Below are positions 5,436 to 62,443 of a stretch of 64,000 bases of DNA, one piece after another; the first letter of the stretch is position 1, and every line of letters begins with the position of its first letter. This stretch comes from Gemmatimonadaceae bacterium (GTDB lineage Bacteria > Gemmatimonadota > Gemmatimonadetes > Gemmatimonadales > Gemmatimonadaceae): NCBI GenBank assembly GCA_025934775.1, contig JAICWO010000003.1, forward strand, positions 1-64,000, in the 5' to 3' direction. The notes below the pieces were generated by a model that saw only the letters and a program-made list of their open reading frames with translations, made no database searches and was not told where the DNA came from. The translations under genes and the position numbers were made by a program.

Positions 5436-6037
5436 GCATTGCGCTGAATTGGGCGGCGTTCGAGTGGATCGCGGCGGTGATCACCGCGATCAGCGTCTAT
5501 CTCGCCGCCCGCGAGCACATCTGGAACTGGCCCACCGCGATTGTGAGCGTGGCGATGTACGCGATCGTGTACCTGCATTCCGGCTTCTACTCGGACGCCG
5601 GATTGCAGGTGGTGTACTTCGTCCTCTCGATCTACGGATGGTACGAGTGGCTGCACGGCGGCGCCGGGCACACGCAACTGCGGGTTTCGAAGGCGTCCCG
5701 ACGTACATGGCTCTGGTGCGCGGTCGTGGGCATCGCGTTCTGGTGGCTCGACGCGTCCGTGGCGCGCCGCTTCAACGGCGTCGCCTTTCCGTATATAGAC
5801 GCGGCGACGACGACGGTGAGTCTCGTGGCGCAATGGATGATGACGCGCAAGATCCTGGAGAACTGGGTGCTCTGGATCGCGGTCAATCTCGTCTACGTGC
5901 CGATGCTGCTCGTGAAGCATCTCGTGCCGACGGCAATCCTGTACACGGTGCTGTTGCTGCTGGCGGTGAAGGGGCTCGTGGATTGGTATAAGAGTTATCA
6001 AACATTGCCCGAGCTCTCGGCAGCGGTGCCGGCATGA
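5432..6037 (+). CDS. pnuC: Nicotinamide riboside/nicotinamide mononucleotide transporter PnuC
   Basis: 201 aa with about seven hydrophobic segments, the usual size and topology of PnuC, an inner-membrane facilitator for the NAD precursor nicotinamide riboside. Family features include the aromatic segment HIWNWPTAIVSV, the YGWYEW turn and a C-terminal WYKSY tail. The GTG start overlaps the upstream S41 stop by 4 nt and the stop overlaps the kinase ATG by 4 nt, so all three genes are translationally coupled. Pairing with a NadR-like kinase supports the substrate: imported riboside would be trapped by phosphorylation. Confidence 0.88.
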   Translation: MSIALNWAAFEWIAAVITAISVYLAAREHIWNWPTAIVSVAMYAIVYLHSGFYSDAGLQVVYFVLSIYGWYEWLHGGAGHTQLRVSKASRRTWLWCAVVGIAFWWLDASVARRFNGVAFPYIDAATTTVSLVAQWMMTRKILENWVLWIAVNLVYVPMLLVKHLVPTAILYTVLLLLAVKGLVDWYKSYQTLPELSAAVPA

Positions 6038-6555
6038 TCCGCGTCGTGCTCACCGGCTCCGAATCGACGGGGAAGTCGACGACCGCGGCGCGCCTGGCCG
6101 AGCACTACGCCGCGGAGCTCGTGCCGGAGTTTGTGCGAGACTACGCCGCGGCGCGCGGCGGCCTGATCGAGTTCTCCGACCATGGCCCGATCGCGCACGG
6201 CCAGATGGCGCTCGAGGACGAGCACATCGCGCGGGGCAATCGCATCGTGATCCAGGACACCGACCTGCTGAGCACGGTCGTCTACTGCGAGCACTATTTC
6301 GGGGCCTGTCCGCGGTGGATCCGCGACGCGGCCGCCGGGCGCCGCCCTGATTTGTATTTGCTCATGGACATCGATCTCCCCTGGATCGCCGACGGCGTCC
6401 GCGACCGCGGCCACATGCGCGAGGCGATGCAGCAGCTCTTCCACGACGCCGTCTTCGCGACCGGCGTACCCGTGTCGATCATCCGCGGCCAGGGCGACGA
6501 GCGCTTCGAGCGAGCCGTTGATGCGATCGACGAGCTGATGTTGGTCGAGGGGTGA
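6034..6555 (+). CDS. NadR-like AAA-type nicotinamide riboside kinase
   Basis: 173 aa, a single P-loop domain. The Walker A motif GSESTGKST is at residues 8-16, the form typical of the NadR kinase domain, and QDTDLLST resembles the second metal/nucleotide motif. The length matches stand-alone NadR kinase domains without the HTH or adenylyltransferase parts of full NadR. It would phosphorylate nicotinamide riboside to NMN in the cytoplasm. The start overlaps the pnuC stop by ATGA, which strengthens the assignment. It could in principle act on another nucleoside. Confidence 0.8.
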   Translation: MIRVVLTGSESTGKSTTAARLAEHYAAELVPEFVRDYAAARGGLIEFSDHGPIAHGQMALEDEHIARGNRIVIQDTDLLSTVVYCEHYFGACPRWIRDAAAGRRPDLYLLMDIDLPWIADGVRDRGHMREAMQQLFHDAVFATGVPVSIIRGQGDERFERAVDAIDELMLVEG

Positions 6556-7293
6556 GAGAACTGCAGGGGGCTACGAATCGCTCCGTTCAGTTCGGATCAT
6601 TCGCCAAGTTGGTCGAGGAGTGAGAGAACTGCAGGGGACTACGAATTATTCGAATGATCCGAATCAGGCGAATTTGCTCCGTGTGGGAGACGAATCCTCG
6701 CTCTGCGGCCGGAATGAACTTTGGGAACAGCCTCGGTTAGCCCCTCGACGCGTCCCGAGCGGCAGTACCCAAGAAAATCCGGGCTCGTTGCGCACAGTCC
6801 TCTCGCGCCAAGCATTCGTTCAATTCGGATCATTCGCAAAGTTGGTCGCGGGTGAGAGAACTGCAGGGGACTACGAATTGTTCGAATGATCCGAATTGAA
6901 CGAATTTGTTCGGTGGGGCGATGGAGCCGGTCGTCCCATCGGCTGGGATGAACACTTGGGAACACCCTCGGTCAGCCCCTCGACGCGTCCCGAGCGGCCG
7001 TACCCAAGAAGATCCCGGCTCGTTGCGAACAGCACTCTCGCGCCAAAGCATTCGTTCAATTCGGCTCATTCGTAAAATTCGTAGCCGAGCAGTTGCCTGG
7101 CTACGAATTCCGCGAATGACCCGAATTCGGCGAATTTGTAGGCATGAATTCTTGGGACCACGCCCGGTTGGCTAGATGTGGTATCCCGAGCGGCAGTCCC
7201 CAAGAAAATCCCGGCTCGTCGCGCACGGCACTCTCTCGCCAAGCATTCGTTCAATTCGGCTCATTCGCATAATTCGTAGCCGAGCAGTTGCCT
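6552..7293. repeat. Array of about 230-bp MITE-like repeat units with nonamer-phased inverted ends
   Basis: Three full units start at about 6621, 6853 and 7081, with 232 and 230 bp between equivalent points; the third is about 195 bp long. A first internally deleted unit lies at 6552-6620 and an 18-bp stub at 7276-7293. Each unit begins with CTACGAATT followed by CGAATNNNN repeated at 9-bp steps, and ends with the reverse complement (ATTCG at 9-bp steps, for example 6813-6838). The GC-rich core, containing CCTCGACGCGTCCCGAGCGG in units 1 and 2, is the most conserved part. No transposase is present. The short open frames across it vary between units and are not genes. Confidence 0.8.
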
Positions 7294-7300
7294 CGCGCCA

Positions 7301-8653
7301 TCAGACGACGACGCGCTCGAGATCCCTCCAGAACACCACACGTATTCTCATATACAAGAACACCGCGACCGGCGCGAGCATCAGGACGAAGCCCCACCAC
7401 AGCCCCGCCGCGCCGAGCGTGGTGTGAAACCCGAGCCACGCGCTCACCGGCACGCCCACGAGCCAGTACGACGCGAGCATCACGATCAGCGGCGCCGTCG
7501 TGTCGCCCGCGCCGCGCAACACGCCAGCGCCCACCGCCTGCGCGCCGTCAAAGACCTGGAACACGCCCGCGATCGGGATCAGGACTGATGCGAGCGCGAT
7601 CACCCGTGCATCGCCGCTGAACGATCGTGACAGCACGCCGGGCATCGACAGAAACACGATCGCGGTGATCGTCATGAATCCGACGCCGCAGAGATACGCG
7701 GCGCGCACCGCCTGCTTCGCGCGCGGCCTGTCGCCGGCGCCGATCGCGTGACCAACGCGCACCGCCGCCGCGCTGCCGACGCCCAGCGGCACCATGAACG
7801 TGAACGAGGCGAGCGTGATCGCGATCTGGTGCGCGGCCATCTCGATCGTGCCGAGCACGCCCATGAGCAGGCCGATCGCGCCGAACGCGCCCGCCTCGAG
7901 CGCCTGTTGTGCGCCGATCGGCGCGCCGATGCGGAGCATGCGCACGAGCGGGCGCCAGTCGAGCGACTCGCGGCGGAGCGGAACGAGATGTGGCCGCAGC
8001 TCGGGCCACGCGAGCGCGAGGAGCATCAGCGCCATCAGCCAGCGTGAGATCGCCGTCGCGATCGCGCTCCCGGCGACGCCGAGCGCCGGACTGCCGAGGT
8101 GGCCGTAGACGAAGACCCAGTTGAAGCCGGCGTTGGTGAGATTCGCCGCGAGCATCGTCCACACGATCGGTGCGACGCGGTGCATGGCCTGGAGACTCTG
8201 GCGCAGCACGACGAACGCGAGATAGGGCACGATCCCGAAGATGGAAATGCGCACGTACGCGGCGGCGTCGGGGATGATCTCAGCCGGCTGGTGAAACGCG
8301 CGCAGCAGGCCGGTCGCCGGCGCGAGCAGGAGCGCAGTCAGCACGCTCAAGCCGAGCGAGAGCACGAGGCCGCGCTGCATGGCGCGCGCGACGGCGCGCA
8401 TCTCGCCCGCGCCGGCGGCTTGCGCGACCAGAGGGTCGAGCGCCATCAACGTGCCCATGCTGAAGATGGACACATTAAAGAAGTATAAATTGCCGAGGGC
8501 GACGGCGGCGAGCACGGGCGCCGACACGCGCCCGACCATGAGCGTGTCGACCACACCCATCGCCTGGAAGCCGAGCTGCACGAGCACCACGGGGACGGCG
8601 AGGCCGACCGTGGCGCGCAGCTCGGAACGGTCACGGCTAGCTTTCAGAGTCAT
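7301..8653 (-). CDS. MATE family efflux transporter
   Basis: 450 aa with twelve predicted membrane segments in two related halves, the usual MATE/NorM design: a cation-coupled exporter of drugs or metabolites in the inner membrane. The N-terminal GLAVPVVLVQLGFQAMGVVD and following TLMVGR form a typical MATE entry sequence, and the second half repeats it near QQALEAGAFGAIGLLMG. The ATG at 8653 (or 8659) is preferred; the frame extends to 8902 but that part overlaps the opposite gene and has no membrane character. The CAT of this start codon overlaps the ATG of the divergent gene, leaving no intergenic promoter space. The substrate is unknown. Confidence 0.85.
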   Translation of the reverse strand: MTLKASRDRSELRATVGLAVPVVLVQLGFQAMGVVDTLMVGRVSAPVLAAVALGNLYFFNVSIFSMGTLMALDPLVAQAAGAGEMRAVARAMQRGLVLSLGLSVLTALLLAPATGLLRAFHQPAEIIPDAAAYVRISIFGIVPYLAFVVLRQSLQAMHRVAPIVWTMLAANLTNAGFNWVFVYGHLGSPALGVAGSAIATAISRWLMALMLLALAWPELRPHLVPLRRESLDWRPLVRMLRIGAPIGAQQALEAGAFGAIGLLMGVLGTIEMAAHQIAITLASFTFMVPLGVGSAAAVRVGHAIGAGDRPRAKQAVRAAYLCGVGFMTITAIVFLSMPGVLSRSFSGDARVIALASVLIPIAGVFQVFDGAQAVGAGVLRGAGDTTAPLIVMLASYWLVGVPVSAWLGFHTTLGAAGLWWGFVLMLAPVAVFLYMRIRVVFWRDLERVVV

Positions 8654-9950
8654 GCGCATCGTTCTGCTCGTCACGGTAGCGACCCTCGTGCTCGCGCGCG
8701 ACTCCAGCGCGCAAACCGGATTGGTCATGGCGCAGGCCGTGCCCGTGGTGACGCGCGCCGACCCCACCGCGACGCGCTCCGCGCTCACCGAGGGGTACGT
8801 GAGCCAGCCGGCCGTGATGGCGAACGGCGAATGGGGCTGGCTCCGCGGCATCGGCACGCTCAACCTCGAGGGGCTCACGATGGCGCGCGGCGAGTTGAGC
8901 ACCGGCGGCTACGGCGAAGGCTACGTCGATCGCCGCCACCCGCACACGTACATGCACGAGCTGCTGCTCGGTGCCGAGCACGCGATCGGCGGCGCGGACG
9001 TGTCGCTCTTCGCCGGCCGCGGCTTTGCGCCGTTCGGCAGCGACGACCCCATGGTCCGGCCGTTCGAGAAGTATCCGATCAACCATCACCTCGCGCAGAT
9101 CCTGGAGCGCACGGTCGCCGTTGCCGCCGTACGAGACGGTCCGGTGATCGGTGAATTCGGGACGTTCAACGGAGACGAGCCGGTGGGCCCCGGCGCGCCG
9201 CCATCGTACCGCCGGTTCGGCGATTCGTGGTCGGCGCGGCTCACCGCGCTGCCGCTCGACGGCGTCGATGTGAGCGGGAGCATCGCGCGCGTCGCGTCGC
9301 CCGAGCTACCGGCCGGGCACGGGCTCGATCAGAGCAAGGGCAGCGTCGTGGTGCGCTTCGATCGGACGAGCGCGAGCGACCGGCGATACGTGATGCTCGA
9401 GTGGGCGCGCACGGGCGAGCGTGATCACGGAATGCTCATTACATCATTGAGAAGTCTCCTCGGCGAGGCGGCCTATTGCCGCCGGGACATCGTCATCGCC
9501 GCGCGGATCGAGCAGACGGATCGCCCGGAAGAGGAGCCGCTGAGCAATCCGTTTCGCACGCCGCGGCCGTCGAGCGATCTCTCGAATCTCGGCGTCTCGC
9601 GCTGGACGACCGGTACGCTCTCGGTGGACGCGCCCGCGCTCGTCGCCGACTGGCTCTCGGGGCGGCCGTTCGTCGAGCTCGAACGGCTGTCCGTCGCGCC
9701 GGGCACGCCGGCCGGCATCTTCAACGCCAACGACCGCTACGGATCGAGTCACATGTGGATGCTTTCGGCGGGCGTGCGGCTGCACGCCGGGATGATGATG
9801 CACGACCGCATGGGCCGTTACGGCGCGGCCCTCCCGCCGCAGCCGGGAACTTCGATGCGCGGCATGGAGTCTCATGAAATGGGCGGCATGCCGGGGATGT
9901 CCGGAATGCCGATGAACAACTCGACTTCCTCCATGACATGCCGTTTGTGA
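8652..9950 (+). CDS. Exported protein of unknown function with Met/His-rich C-terminus
   Basis: 432 aa. The start MRIVLLVTVATLVLA followed by RDSSAQT is a signal peptide with a cleavage site near the Ala-Gln, so the longer open frame from 8379 is rejected. The body alternates polar and hydrophobic residues with many aromatic and Gly residues and may be a beta-barrel, but I recognise no named domain. The last 55 residues hold about 12 methionines and 3 histidines, including MMMHDRM and MGGMPGMSGMPM, as in copper or silver-binding proteins. It overlaps the next gene by 13 bp, which suggests a joint role. A metal link is an inference only. Confidence 0.7.
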   Translation: MRIVLLVTVATLVLARDSSAQTGLVMAQAVPVVTRADPTATRSALTEGYVSQPAVMANGEWGWLRGIGTLNLEGLTMARGELSTGGYGEGYVDRRHPHTYMHELLLGAEHAIGGADVSLFAGRGFAPFGSDDPMVRPFEKYPINHHLAQILERTVAVAAVRDGPVIGEFGTFNGDEPVGPGAPPSYRRFGDSWSARLTALPLDGVDVSGSIARVASPELPAGHGLDQSKGSVVVRFDRTSASDRRYVMLEWARTGERDHGMLITSLRSLLGEAAYCRRDIVIAARIEQTDRPEEEPLSNPFRTPRPSSDLSNLGVSRWTTGTLSVDAPALVADWLSGRPFVELERLSVAPGTPAGIFNANDRYGSSHMWMLSAGVRLHAGMMMHDRMGRYGAALPPQPGTSMRGMESHEMGGMPGMSGMPMNNSTSSMTCRL

Positions 9951-35815: not shown

Positions 35816-37386
35816 CGCGTACGGTGGCCGCGGCATGGCATGCAGTCGAACGGCGTCCGGCGCTCGTCGCGGCCGCCGTCGCGGCGGGCGTGCTCGCGAT
35901 CGCGCTCGCCGCGATCGATACGCTGCCGGTCGGCGTCGTGCACGACGACGGGATGTACGTGGTGCTCGCGAAGTCCATCGCCACAGGCCACGGCTATCGC
36001 TGGCTGCATCTGCCCGGCGCGCCCGCGGCCACGCACTTCCCGCCCGGCTACCCGCTGCTGCTCGCGCTGGTCTGGTGGGTGCTGCCGGCGTTTCCCGCGA
36101 ACGTGATTGCGTTCAAGGCGCTCAACGCGGTGCTGCTCGCGGTCGCCGCGTGCGCGCTCGTGCTGCTCGCGCACCAGCGCTTCGAGTTCACGGTCGCCTG
36201 GTCCGCGTGCGCGGCCGCGATCGGCTGCGCGAGTGTGCCGTCGCTCGTATTGAGCTCCCTCGTCATGTCGGAGACGCTGTTCCTCGCGCTCGTCGTGCTC
36301 ACGCTGCTCGTCGCCGAGCAGGTGAACGACGCGGCTCGGTCCGTACCGCGCGCGACTGCGCTCGGCGTGCTCGCCGCGGTGGTGGTGCTCGTTCGCACCC
36401 ACGGCATCGCGCTCGCCGCGGCGATTGCGATCGCGCTCTTCCTCCGCGGCCGCATGCGCGCGCTCGCCGCGTTCGCGATCGTCTTCGCGATCGGCATCGC
36501 GCCGTGGGAGATCTGGGAGACGCTGCATGCCGCGTCCGTCCCGCTCGCGGTCCGCGGTGACTACGGCAGCTACAGCGGTTGGCTCGCGCACGGCTTCGCG
36601 ACGAATGGACTCGGCTTGGCGTCGAGAACACTCGCGCGCACGACGACGGAGATATTCGCCGCGCTCACGGCGCTGGTTGGCGCCGGGCTCCCCGGCGTCG
36701 CGCGACTCGTCAGCGGCGCCAGCGTGCTCGCGCTCGCGATTCTCGGAGGCGTTCGTGCGTGGGCGAGTGCCCGTGTGACCGTGGCGTTCATCGGATTGTA
36801 CATGGCCATAGTCCTTCTATGGCCTTTCACGCCGGCGCGCTTTCTCTGGGCCGTCTGGCCGCTGATCGTGCTGCTCGCGATGCGCGGCGCGCGCGCGATT
36901 CTCGAATGGAATCCCTCGCGGCCGGCGTGGCGCGTATCGCGCGGGCTTGCCGTCGCGTGTGCGCTCGCGACGGTCGTAGGCTACGCCACATACACGGCGC
37001 GCGGATATCGCGGGCGCTGGTGGTCGAGTATTCCGCGACAGATGGCGTTCGCGGTGCGGCCGCTCGTGCAGTGGACGTCGCAGCACACGCGCCCGGGCGA
37101 CGTCGTCGCGTCGAACGCCGAGCTGCTCGTGTATCTCTACGCGGACCGTGCCTCGGTGCCCGCGACGGCCCTCTCGGTCAACGACTACTTCCATGCGCCG
37201 AGCGCGTCGGCCAGCGCGGCGGCGCTCCGTGACATTTTGCGCGCGTATCACGTCGATGCGGTGGCGATCGTGGCCAACGACTCGCTCGCCGCGGCGGCGC
37301 GTGCGATGGCGGCGATGCGTCCGCCGCAGCTCGTCTTGCGCGATTCCATTCCGAACGGCTTGATCCTCACCTCCGCTCTCCGATGA
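35812..37386 (+). CDS. GT39/ArnT-like membrane glycosyltransferase
   Basis: 524 aa with about 11-12 membrane helices in the N-terminal 390 residues and a soluble C-terminal part. The first extracytoplasmic loop has VVHDDGMYVVLAKS, holding the conserved acidic pair of GT-C (PMT/ArnT/GT39) enzymes, and the later THFPPGYPLL is a GT-C loop typical of the family. Such enzymes transfer a sugar from a polyprenyl-phosphate donor in the periplasm. GTG start at 35812 coupled to pilR. With the GT2 and TMTC-like genes it may form a protein-glycosylation set; the acceptor is unknown. Confidence 0.72.
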   Translation: MTRTVAAAWHAVERRPALVAAAVAAGVLAIALAAIDTLPVGVVHDDGMYVVLAKSIATGHGYRWLHLPGAPAATHFPPGYPLLLALVWWVLPAFPANVIAFKALNAVLLAVAACALVLLAHQRFEFTVAWSACAAAIGCASVPSLVLSSLVMSETLFLALVVLTLLVAEQVNDAARSVPRATALGVLAAVVVLVRTHGIALAAAIAIALFLRGRMRALAAFAIVFAIGIAPWEIWETLHAASVPLAVRGDYGSYSGWLAHGFATNGLGLASRTLARTTTEIFAALTALVGAGLPGVARLVSGASVLALAILGGVRAWASARVTVAFIGLYMAIVLLWPFTPARFLWAVWPLIVLLAMRGARAILEWNPSRPAWRVSRGLAVACALATVVGYATYTARGYRGRWWSSIPRQMAFAVRPLVQWTSQHTRPGDVVASNAELLVYLYADRASVPATALSVNDYFHAPSASASAAALRDILRAYHVDAVAIVANDSLAAAARAMAAMRPPQLVLRDSIPNGLILTSALR

Positions 37387-51378: not shown

Positions 51379-52635
51379 ATGTCCATCCTCCGTTTCACAA
51401 CAGCGGGCGAATCCCACGGTCCCGCCCTCGTCAGCATTCTCGAAGGCATGATCGCCGGCCTCCCGCTCCTGGCCGACGACGTCAACACCGAGCTCGCCCG
51501 CCGGCAGCAAGGCTACGGCCGCGGGCGCCGCATGCAAATCGAGAAGGACGCGATCGAATTCCTCTCCGGCGTGCGCGCCGGCCAGACCCTCGGCGCGCCA
51601 ATCGCGATGCTCATGCACAACCGCGATTGGAAGAACTGGCAGGAGATCATGGACCCCGCGCCGAGCAAGGCGGAGAGTGGAGAGGAGAGAATGGAGAGTG
51701 GAGATGCCGCGCTCTCCACTCTCCACTCTCCACCCTCCACTCTCCGTAAACGCGCCGTCACGCGCGTCCGTCCCGGACACGCCGACCTCACCGGCATTCT
51801 CAAATACGACCGCGACGATGCACGGGACATTCTCGAGCGTGCCTCCGCGCGCGAGACCACGGCGCGCGTCGCCGCGGCCGCGATCTGTAAGCGTTTGCTA
51901 AACGAGTTCGGCGTGCGCATCGGGAGCCACCTCGTGCACCTCGGCGGCATCGACGCCGCGCGGCCGGAGACCATGCCCGAGGACCTCAACGCGGCGAGCG
52001 ACGCATCGCCGCTCCGCACACTCGACAAGGGCGCCGAGCAGCGGATGATCGCCTACATCGACGAGATCAAGCGCGCCGGCAACACGCTCGGCGGAATCTG
52101 CGAGGTCGTCGCCGACGGTCTGCCCGTGGGATTGGGATCGCACGTGTCGTGGGATCGAAAGCTCGACGGGCGCATCGGCGCGGCGATCATGTCGATTCCC
52201 GCGGTGAAAGGCGTCGAGATCGGAATGGGCTTTCAGGCGTCGCGTGTCACGGGCGCCGACGTGCACGATGAGATTGAACCGGCGCACGGCCGCACGCTCA
52301 CCGGTAACGTGCGCCGCAAGACCAACCGCGCGGGCGGGCTCGAGGGCGGGATGACGACCGGTGAGCCGCTCGTCGTGCGGGTGGCCATGAAACCCATCAG
52401 CACGCTCATGCGTCCGCTGGGAACAGTGGACGTCGCGACCGGCGAATCGGCGGCAGCGGTCGCCGAGCGCAGCGATGTGACCGCGGTGCCCGCGATGGGA
52501 GTGATTGCCGAGGCGATGGTCGCGTTCGTGCTCGCGGATGCGTTCCTCGAGAAGTTCGGCGGTGACTCGCTCGGCGAGACCAAACGGAATTATGACGCCT
52601 ACCTTTCGCACGTCGCATCCCGGCTCGGCGGCTGA
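51379..52635 (+). CDS. aroC: Chorismate synthase, with an in-frame repeat insertion
   Basis: 418 aa; most family members are about 360-400. Family motifs: TTAGESHGPAL at the start, GYGRGRRMQIEKD, GHADLTGILKY and ERASARETTARVA, all part of the FMN/EPSP site. It makes chorismate from EPSP. Between EIMDPAP and RAVTRVRPGHAD lies about 28 extra residues (about 96-124), encoded by a heptad inverted repeat (51671-51746). The frame stays open and the flanking motifs are intact, so the enzyme is probably active with an added surface loop. The ATG at 51379 is chosen. Its end overlaps aroK by 44 nt. Confidence 0.92.
   Translation: MSILRFTTAGESHGPALVSILEGMIAGLPLLADDVNTELARRQQGYGRGRRMQIEKDAIEFLSGVRAGQTLGAPIAMLMHNRDWKNWQEIMDPAPSKAESGEERMESGDAALSTLHSPPSTLRKRAVTRVRPGHADLTGILKYDRDDARDILERASARETTARVAAAAICKRLLNEFGVRIGSHLVHLGGIDAARPETMPEDLNAASDASPLRTLDKGAEQRMIAYIDEIKRAGNTLGGICEVVADGLPVGLGSHVSWDRKLDGRIGAAIMSIPAVKGVEIGMGFQASRVTGADVHDEIEPAHGRTLTGNVRRKTNRAGGLEGGMTTGEPLVVRVAMKPISTLMRPLGTVDVATGESAAAVAERSDVTAVPAMGVIAEAMVAFVLADAFLEKFGGDSLGETKRNYDAYLSHVASRLGG
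51671..51746. repeat. Heptad inverted repeat inside aroC
   Basis: The left arm has GGAGAGT-type 7-bp units (51672-51704), and the right arm CTCTCCA units (51712-51746), complementary with few mismatches around a 6-nt centre. It encodes an extra loop of chorismate synthase. Confidence 0.9.
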
Positions 52636-62354: not shown

Positions 62355-62363
62355 GTGCTGAGA

Positions 62364-62443
62364 GGGGAGAGTGGAGAGAAGAGAGTGGCGGCGCGCGTCG
62401 CCCGCTCTCTCCTCTCCACTCTCGACTCTCGACTCTCCAATCT
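62364..62443. repeat. Heptad inverted repeat between hslU and argF
   Basis: GGGGAGA, GTGGAGA, GAAGAGA (62364-62384) and, after a GC-rich centre, CCTCTCC, ACTCTCG, ACTCTCG, ACTCTCC, AATCTCC (to 62443). Arms are complementary with mismatches. It fills the 96-bp spacer, 7 nt before the argF ATG. Confidence 0.88.

Follow-up and report, generated by a model that had tools for sequence, protein, structure and literature searches.

Between the stop codons of two convergent genes, a NadR-like AAA_28 ATPase gene upstream (6034-6555, forward strand) and a MATE-type transporter gene downstream (7301-8902, reverse strand; named from reading its sequence), lies an array of short inverted elements whose arms repeat every nine nucleotides. 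The window, by which we mean the whole 64,000-nucleotide stretch of Gemmatimonadaceae DNA analysed here, contains this 9-nt-phased triple motif in the array and nowhere else. The array comprises three full units (6639-7279), each with 9-nt-phased CGAAT arms enclosing a conserved core, and one deleted copy. Left arms begin CTACGAATT and carry CGAAT each 9 nt, while right arms are their complement; the CTACGAATTNNNCGAATNNNNCGAATNNNNCGAAT arms are found at 6639, 6871 and 7101 on the forward strand, with complements at 6814, 7050 and 7245. Autocorrelation peaks at lag 9 in all six arms (z 2.7-5.2), and the CTACG of the left end is paired with the CGTAG of the right end inside the stem.

Read along the forward strand, unit 1 consists of a left arm (6639-6676), a core (6702-6792) and a right arm that lacks the terminal CGTAG (6811-6846); unit 2 has its left arm at 6871-6908, its core at 6936-7027 and a right arm ending AATTCGTAG at 7047-7084; and unit 3 runs from a left arm at 7101-7138 through a core whose left half is degenerate (7132-7223, the model match overlapping the arm end) to a right arm at 7242-7279, again ending AATTCGTAG. 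The first copy, unit 0 (6571-6607), is an internal deletion as originally predicted, its 5' end CTACGAAT being fused to part of the 3' arm; like unit 1 it is missing the right-hand terminal CGTAG and runs straight into another copy of the NadR 3' flank. The last copy had been taken for a stub, yet 7101-7279 is a complete arm-core-arm unit, with only another copy of the right flank CCGAGCAGTTGCCT behind it (at 7085 and 7280), and the core that is conserved elsewhere, at ~90 nt, exceeds in length the motif quoted in the original prediction.

The junctions between units preserve a record of how the array formed. The native NadR 3' end and flank (6540-6570, forward strand) recurs at 6608-6638 and 6840-6870, and a second copy of the right flank CCGAGCAGTTGCCT (7280-7293) separates unit 2 from unit 3 (7085-7098). 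These flank copies at the junctions, two from the NadR side and one from the right, show that the array grew by tandem duplication, most simply through one insertion followed by duplication in place and not through repeated insertion. Misassembly, the artefact that might have produced such an array, is an unlikely origin, since the units are not identical and other contigs hold related copies. Elsewhere in the window, short repeats of GGAGAGTGGAGAG type form imperfect palindromes with no gene inside (51671-51746 and 62360-62430), which resemble the 7-nt arms of the four-helix-bundle genes described below.

Dispersed copies, folding and empty sites

The phased arm pattern has 17 matches in the whole genome and its reversed control has none, placing the 9-bp-phased inverted ends far above chance. 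The ~90-nt core (TTGGGAAC...CTCGG...TCCCGAGCGGCAGT.CCCAAGAAAATCCCGGCTCGTT) is found again on several contigs, enclosed at three loci (L005, L008 and L038) by arms whose sequence differs considerably. Searched with a covariance model of the core, 12 of the family's 118 genomes gave copies: all six of the genus, and others from three further genera. One relative, G042, has about 25 such places, and the copies there form nested hairpins of ~300 nt. The search that had been proposed for arm ends and core found both dispersed in the genome. Among inverted-repeat pairs more generally, 59 scored at least 40 in a 1.11 Mb sample (stretches from three contigs of this genome) against none in shuffles. 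Plasmid and phage collections searched with the array gave no match. No description of such elements was found in the open-access literature, a search outside which most subscription journals fall and which is therefore weak evidence of novelty. Numerous REP-like palindromes, TCATCCCGAGCG...GAGTCGAGGGATCTGGGCTCGTTGC, also occur (G000:C20:41590, 80295, 101666 and 258785; C47:9824, 14640 and 394293), and their ends coincide with those of the window-unit core. With its ends (CGCTCGGGAT, GGCTCGTTGC) common to a separate, numerous genomic repeat of this REP-like kind, the core may be a captured hairpin.

Unit 2 is predicted to fold at -110 kcal/mol (z -7.4). Across 16 copies from G042, 95% of pair cells are paired, compared to 34-46% when the pairing is slid, and compensatory double changes, G-U pairs among them, occur at 25 of 87 pairs (shuffled mean 12.2, sd 2.1). 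The array may or may not encode structured RNAs, as had been suggested: covariation shows the hairpin to be conserved, but a long palindrome folds equally well on either strand or as DNA, and a search of Rfam 15 with the window locus and seven related loci found nothing at gathering score, only sub-threshold miRNA-like hairpins on both strands.

At the orthologous NadR/MATE junction the array is absent from two relatives, the interval measuring 842 bp here against 78 bp in G064, and 822 bp here against 58 bp in G083. A third relative, G014, carries at this junction (C23 near 36461-36688, L133) a different phased hairpin, ATCTGACAACGTCTGACAGCATCTGA..., which gives the junction the look of an insertion hot spot. 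These relatives are ~70-77% identical, and their empty sites too diverged to read exact insertion ends or target-site duplications; within a syntenic 20-kb block the gaps vary across all relatives, so some element loci there are uninformative.

Coding partners and the period of the arms

A partner with matching ends, as it had been proposed to look for, exists in the same genome, but it carries a lone GxxExxY gene for a PD-(D/E)XK nuclease instead of a transposase. At C40:75155-75618 the single ORF is a GxxExxY gene (TIGR04256 113 bits, cut-off 35; PF13366 118 bits) flanked by window-type CGAAT arms, to which the arms of the window units are 87% identical over 38 nt (E 2.4e-8). Another arm family (TTGGATTG...GCGGACGCGGACT) encloses both a GxxExxY copy (C20:13317-13857) and the core-bearing non-coding copies L005 and L008. 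Across the genus, arms matching core elements were found at 10 of 20 GxxExxY loci; the corresponding figures were 1 of 28 for four-helix-bundle loci and 12 of 300 for random pieces. The remaining ten GxxExxY loci have no arm match to any core element. The arms of one GxxExxY locus in G042 are common to 16 core elements of that genome. Coding and non-coding members have arms in common and not the core, and similarity among repeats of one motif may overstate descent, being possibly in part convergence. Four-helix-bundle arms have short non-coding inverted partners of their own, at roughly three to four places per gene (four genes, 1.11 Mb). Coding members also vary in presence: a GxxExxY element at C20:303 kb, with arms CTACGGACC.../...GGTTCGTAG, has no counterpart at the equivalent position in G042 (99 bp vs 640) or in G014 (185 vs 730).

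A GxxExxY pseudogene with two in-frame TAG codons (G000:C39:25334-25645, L237) suggests that the genes undergo turnover, and at L025:1499-1933 the last codons and TAG stop of the GxxExxY ORF are supplied by the arm itself (...AATTCGTAG). At G000:C47:332721-333656 (L172:12721-13656), 37-bp arms of phased CCGTGTTCC units, 95% identical, surround one ORF that reads as an endonuclease/exonuclease/phosphatase-type (EEP-like) hydrolase, a possible third cargo. A four-helix-bundle gene at G000:C7:39798-40773 (L015) has inverted arms of more than 200 nt with repeats spaced ~17 nt, and these arms recur without the gene at C20:155 kb, C20:318 kb and C6:106 kb. PF05635, the four-helix-bundle (S23/IVP) family, has seven matches in the genome, none of them inside the array.

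The period of the arms follows the cargo gene. The comparison was restricted to loci with clear inverted arms, the GxxExxY flanks being taken from the genus genomes and from 55 loci of an 85,000-species scan that spanned Gemmatimonadota, Chloroflexi, Bacteroidota, Luteimonas, Marinimicrobia and Desulfobacterales. The best lag was 9 or 10 nt (or double) at 25 GxxExxY loci and 7 nt (or multiples) at one, whereas it was 7 nt (or multiples) at 27 four-helix-bundle loci and 9 or 10 nt at one (Fisher p=6e-13, duplicates removed). The median difference between z9 and z7 was +3.1 for GxxExxY and -4.4 for four-helix-bundle arms, and shuffled arms fell into the 9/10 class in ~27% of cases and the 7 class in ~18%. 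GxxExxY arms across the sampled phyla are variants of one unit (CNGAT, CGAAT, CACGGAT, CACAGAT), and the window arms, with period 9, agree with those around GxxExxY genes (9-10) and not with the 7-nt class. The four-helix-bundle loci (S23/IVP, PF05635) were drawn from the genus and from its phylum, a single phylum in all, so that the claim across phyla is made by the GxxExxY side and by a published Coxiella 23S intervening sequence (IVS) with a 28-bp terminal stem and an S23p ORF whose start codon is preceded by GACAGAT heptamers in tandem (PMC4990558). As those heptamers stand beside an S23p gene, they lend the 7-nt side independent support.

The GxxExxY protein itself is probably an active nuclease, a view that draws on its modelled fold and conserved residues. 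The model, built from 34 sequences, has a PD-(D/E)XK core (pLDDT 92), and in those sequences D73 and E83 are invariant and K85 is conserved in at least 90%. Among solved structures the model's closest counterpart is SSO0001 (4ic1; Foldseek E 1.7e-4; Z 9.3 and rmsd 4.6 over 104 residues), which we take to be a Cas4; restriction nucleases and archaeal Holliday-junction resolvases (Hjc) rank lower, with Z values that may mean only a common arrangement. The open-access literature yielded neither a function nor a mobile-element role for the family (NCBIfam TIGR04256, Pfam PF13366 PDDEXK_3).

A candidate mechanism and its rivals

Our preferred reading, held with moderate confidence, is that the array is made up of non-coding, non-autonomous representatives of a small mobile-element family partnered with GxxExxY nuclease elements, and that it is probably a hitchhiker within a class of mini mobile DNA that has received little study. 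That the units are non-autonomous was among the original suggestions, and it draws support from the dispersed copies, the inverted arms, the absence at the orthologous site and the coding partner with the same arms. Under the proposed plan, two long 9-nt-phased repeat arms would surround an internal payload, which in coding members is one GxxExxY PD-(D/E)XK nuclease gene and in non-coding members the conserved ~90-nt core hairpin. The nuclease may bind the phased repeats, or a hairpin or cruciform extruded from them, and cut the element or its target, thereby moving coding and non-coding copies with compatible arms; mobilisation by the GxxExxY nuclease is what we infer. One non-coding element would then have entered between the convergent NadR-like and MATE genes before being duplicated in tandem. 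The arm sequences change fast while period and base-pairing are retained, and recognition of the repeat unit or of the folded hairpin by the nuclease would explain why period and pairing are kept as the arm sequence drifts.

A selfish hairpin acting at the level of RNA, in the manner of the 23S rRNA IVS, is an unlikely explanation. Such a transcript would be cleaved by RNase III, or would protect or terminate 3' ends, and would spread via RNA or persist as a harmless passenger at gene ends. The very stable folds and the covariation with G-U pairs are as it predicts, the window copy does sit between two stop codons of convergent genes, and the Coxiella IVS combines stem, S23p ORF and heptamers on the same plan (PMC4990558). 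The elements, however, are intergenic and not within rRNA, and have no Rfam match at gathering score. In a sample, convergent placement was counted in 10 of 37 cases against 70 of 402 gaps, an enrichment too weak to claim and one that depends on a crude gene caller. An RNA-level origin would not, moreover, account for the association with a nuclease whose fold is one that mostly cuts DNA.

We consider it improbable that the units are ordinary MITEs whose parent, a classical DDE or Y1 transposon, has since been lost or sits in a part of the genome outside the assembly. Non-coding copies with inverted arms, dispersed through the genome and absent in relatives, would be expected of MITEs; against this, arms of unrelated sequence surround one core, unlike the fixed ends recognised by a transposase, and a genome-wide search directed at Y1 rather than DDE found no Y1_Tnp (RAYT) match in this genome, which is 99% complete, nor in four of five relatives, E. 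coli and four other controls being positive. Little credence is likewise given to passive hairpins, that is, palindromes that replication slippage and template switching enlarge and keep symmetrical at gene ends with no mobile element involved. Such processes do yield short repeats in phase and make both arms change in concert, and the different phased hairpin at the orthologous junction of G014 is compatible with them, but they do not account for an identical arm type and core at many unlinked loci, or for coding partners with matching arms, and slippage predicts no period that tracks the cargo gene across phyla. Movement of GTAG-tagged REP or REPIN elements by a RAYT transposase is highly improbable, and this identity was rejected: CTACG/CGTAG occurs in the ends of these palindromic, extragenic elements, but it is paired within the stem, whereas REPs are defined by a GTAG/CGTC tag, unpaired, at one end (PMC3733652), and RAYT-type Y1 transposases are absent from the genome.

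We also offer a broader proposal, tentatively and leaning slightly towards doubt. Minimal mobile elements that lack a classical transposase may form a distinct, widespread class, each comprising one small protein between palindromic arms whose period is set by that protein (9-10 nt for GxxExxY, 7 nt for the S23-type four-helix bundle) and each accompanied by swarms of non-coding hairpin satellites, the 23S rRNA IVS being those of the second branch that reside in rRNA. Many bacterial genomes hold multiple copies of GxxExxY and S23/four-helix-bundle genes, which have no assigned function; by tracking the cargo family, the period provides a concrete and testable role for them, that of small selfish elements, together with a candidate substrate. 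Were the proposal true, the spread of 23S intervening sequences, an old question, would become directly testable, and the phased hairpin repeats in intergenic regions of these genomes would be explained.

Relation to known systems

Several known systems share parts of this plan. REP/REPIN elements and their RAYT are alike in being palindromic extragenic repeats, clustered and near gene ends, and differ in arms that are here several times longer, in addition to the paired tag and missing RAYT. Cyanobacterial STRRs are heptanucleotide, short phased intergenic repeats; the window arms are likewise short phased intergenic repeats, with a period of 9 nt instead of 7. Bacterial MITEs, like the window units, are short and non-coding, with terminal inverted repeats, dispersed copies and partner copies bearing the same ends. 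The arms of the window units, however, are fast-changing phased repeats in place of fixed terminal repeats, and the elements with the same ends carry a nuclease gene instead of a transposase, Y1 being the type searched for genome-wide and absent. The 23S rRNA IVS of Coxiella and Leptospira offer a long terminal stem, one small ORF, a selfish habit and short phased repeats beside the ORF, but reside in 23S rRNA helices and pair S23p with 7-nt repeats; the array, lying between two protein-coding genes with period 9, is not itself such an IVS, and its elements are intergenic, non-coding and GxxExxY-partnered. The GxxExxY family (TIGR04256, PF13366) is connected with the window units through its gene, which is borne by coding elements with matching arms.
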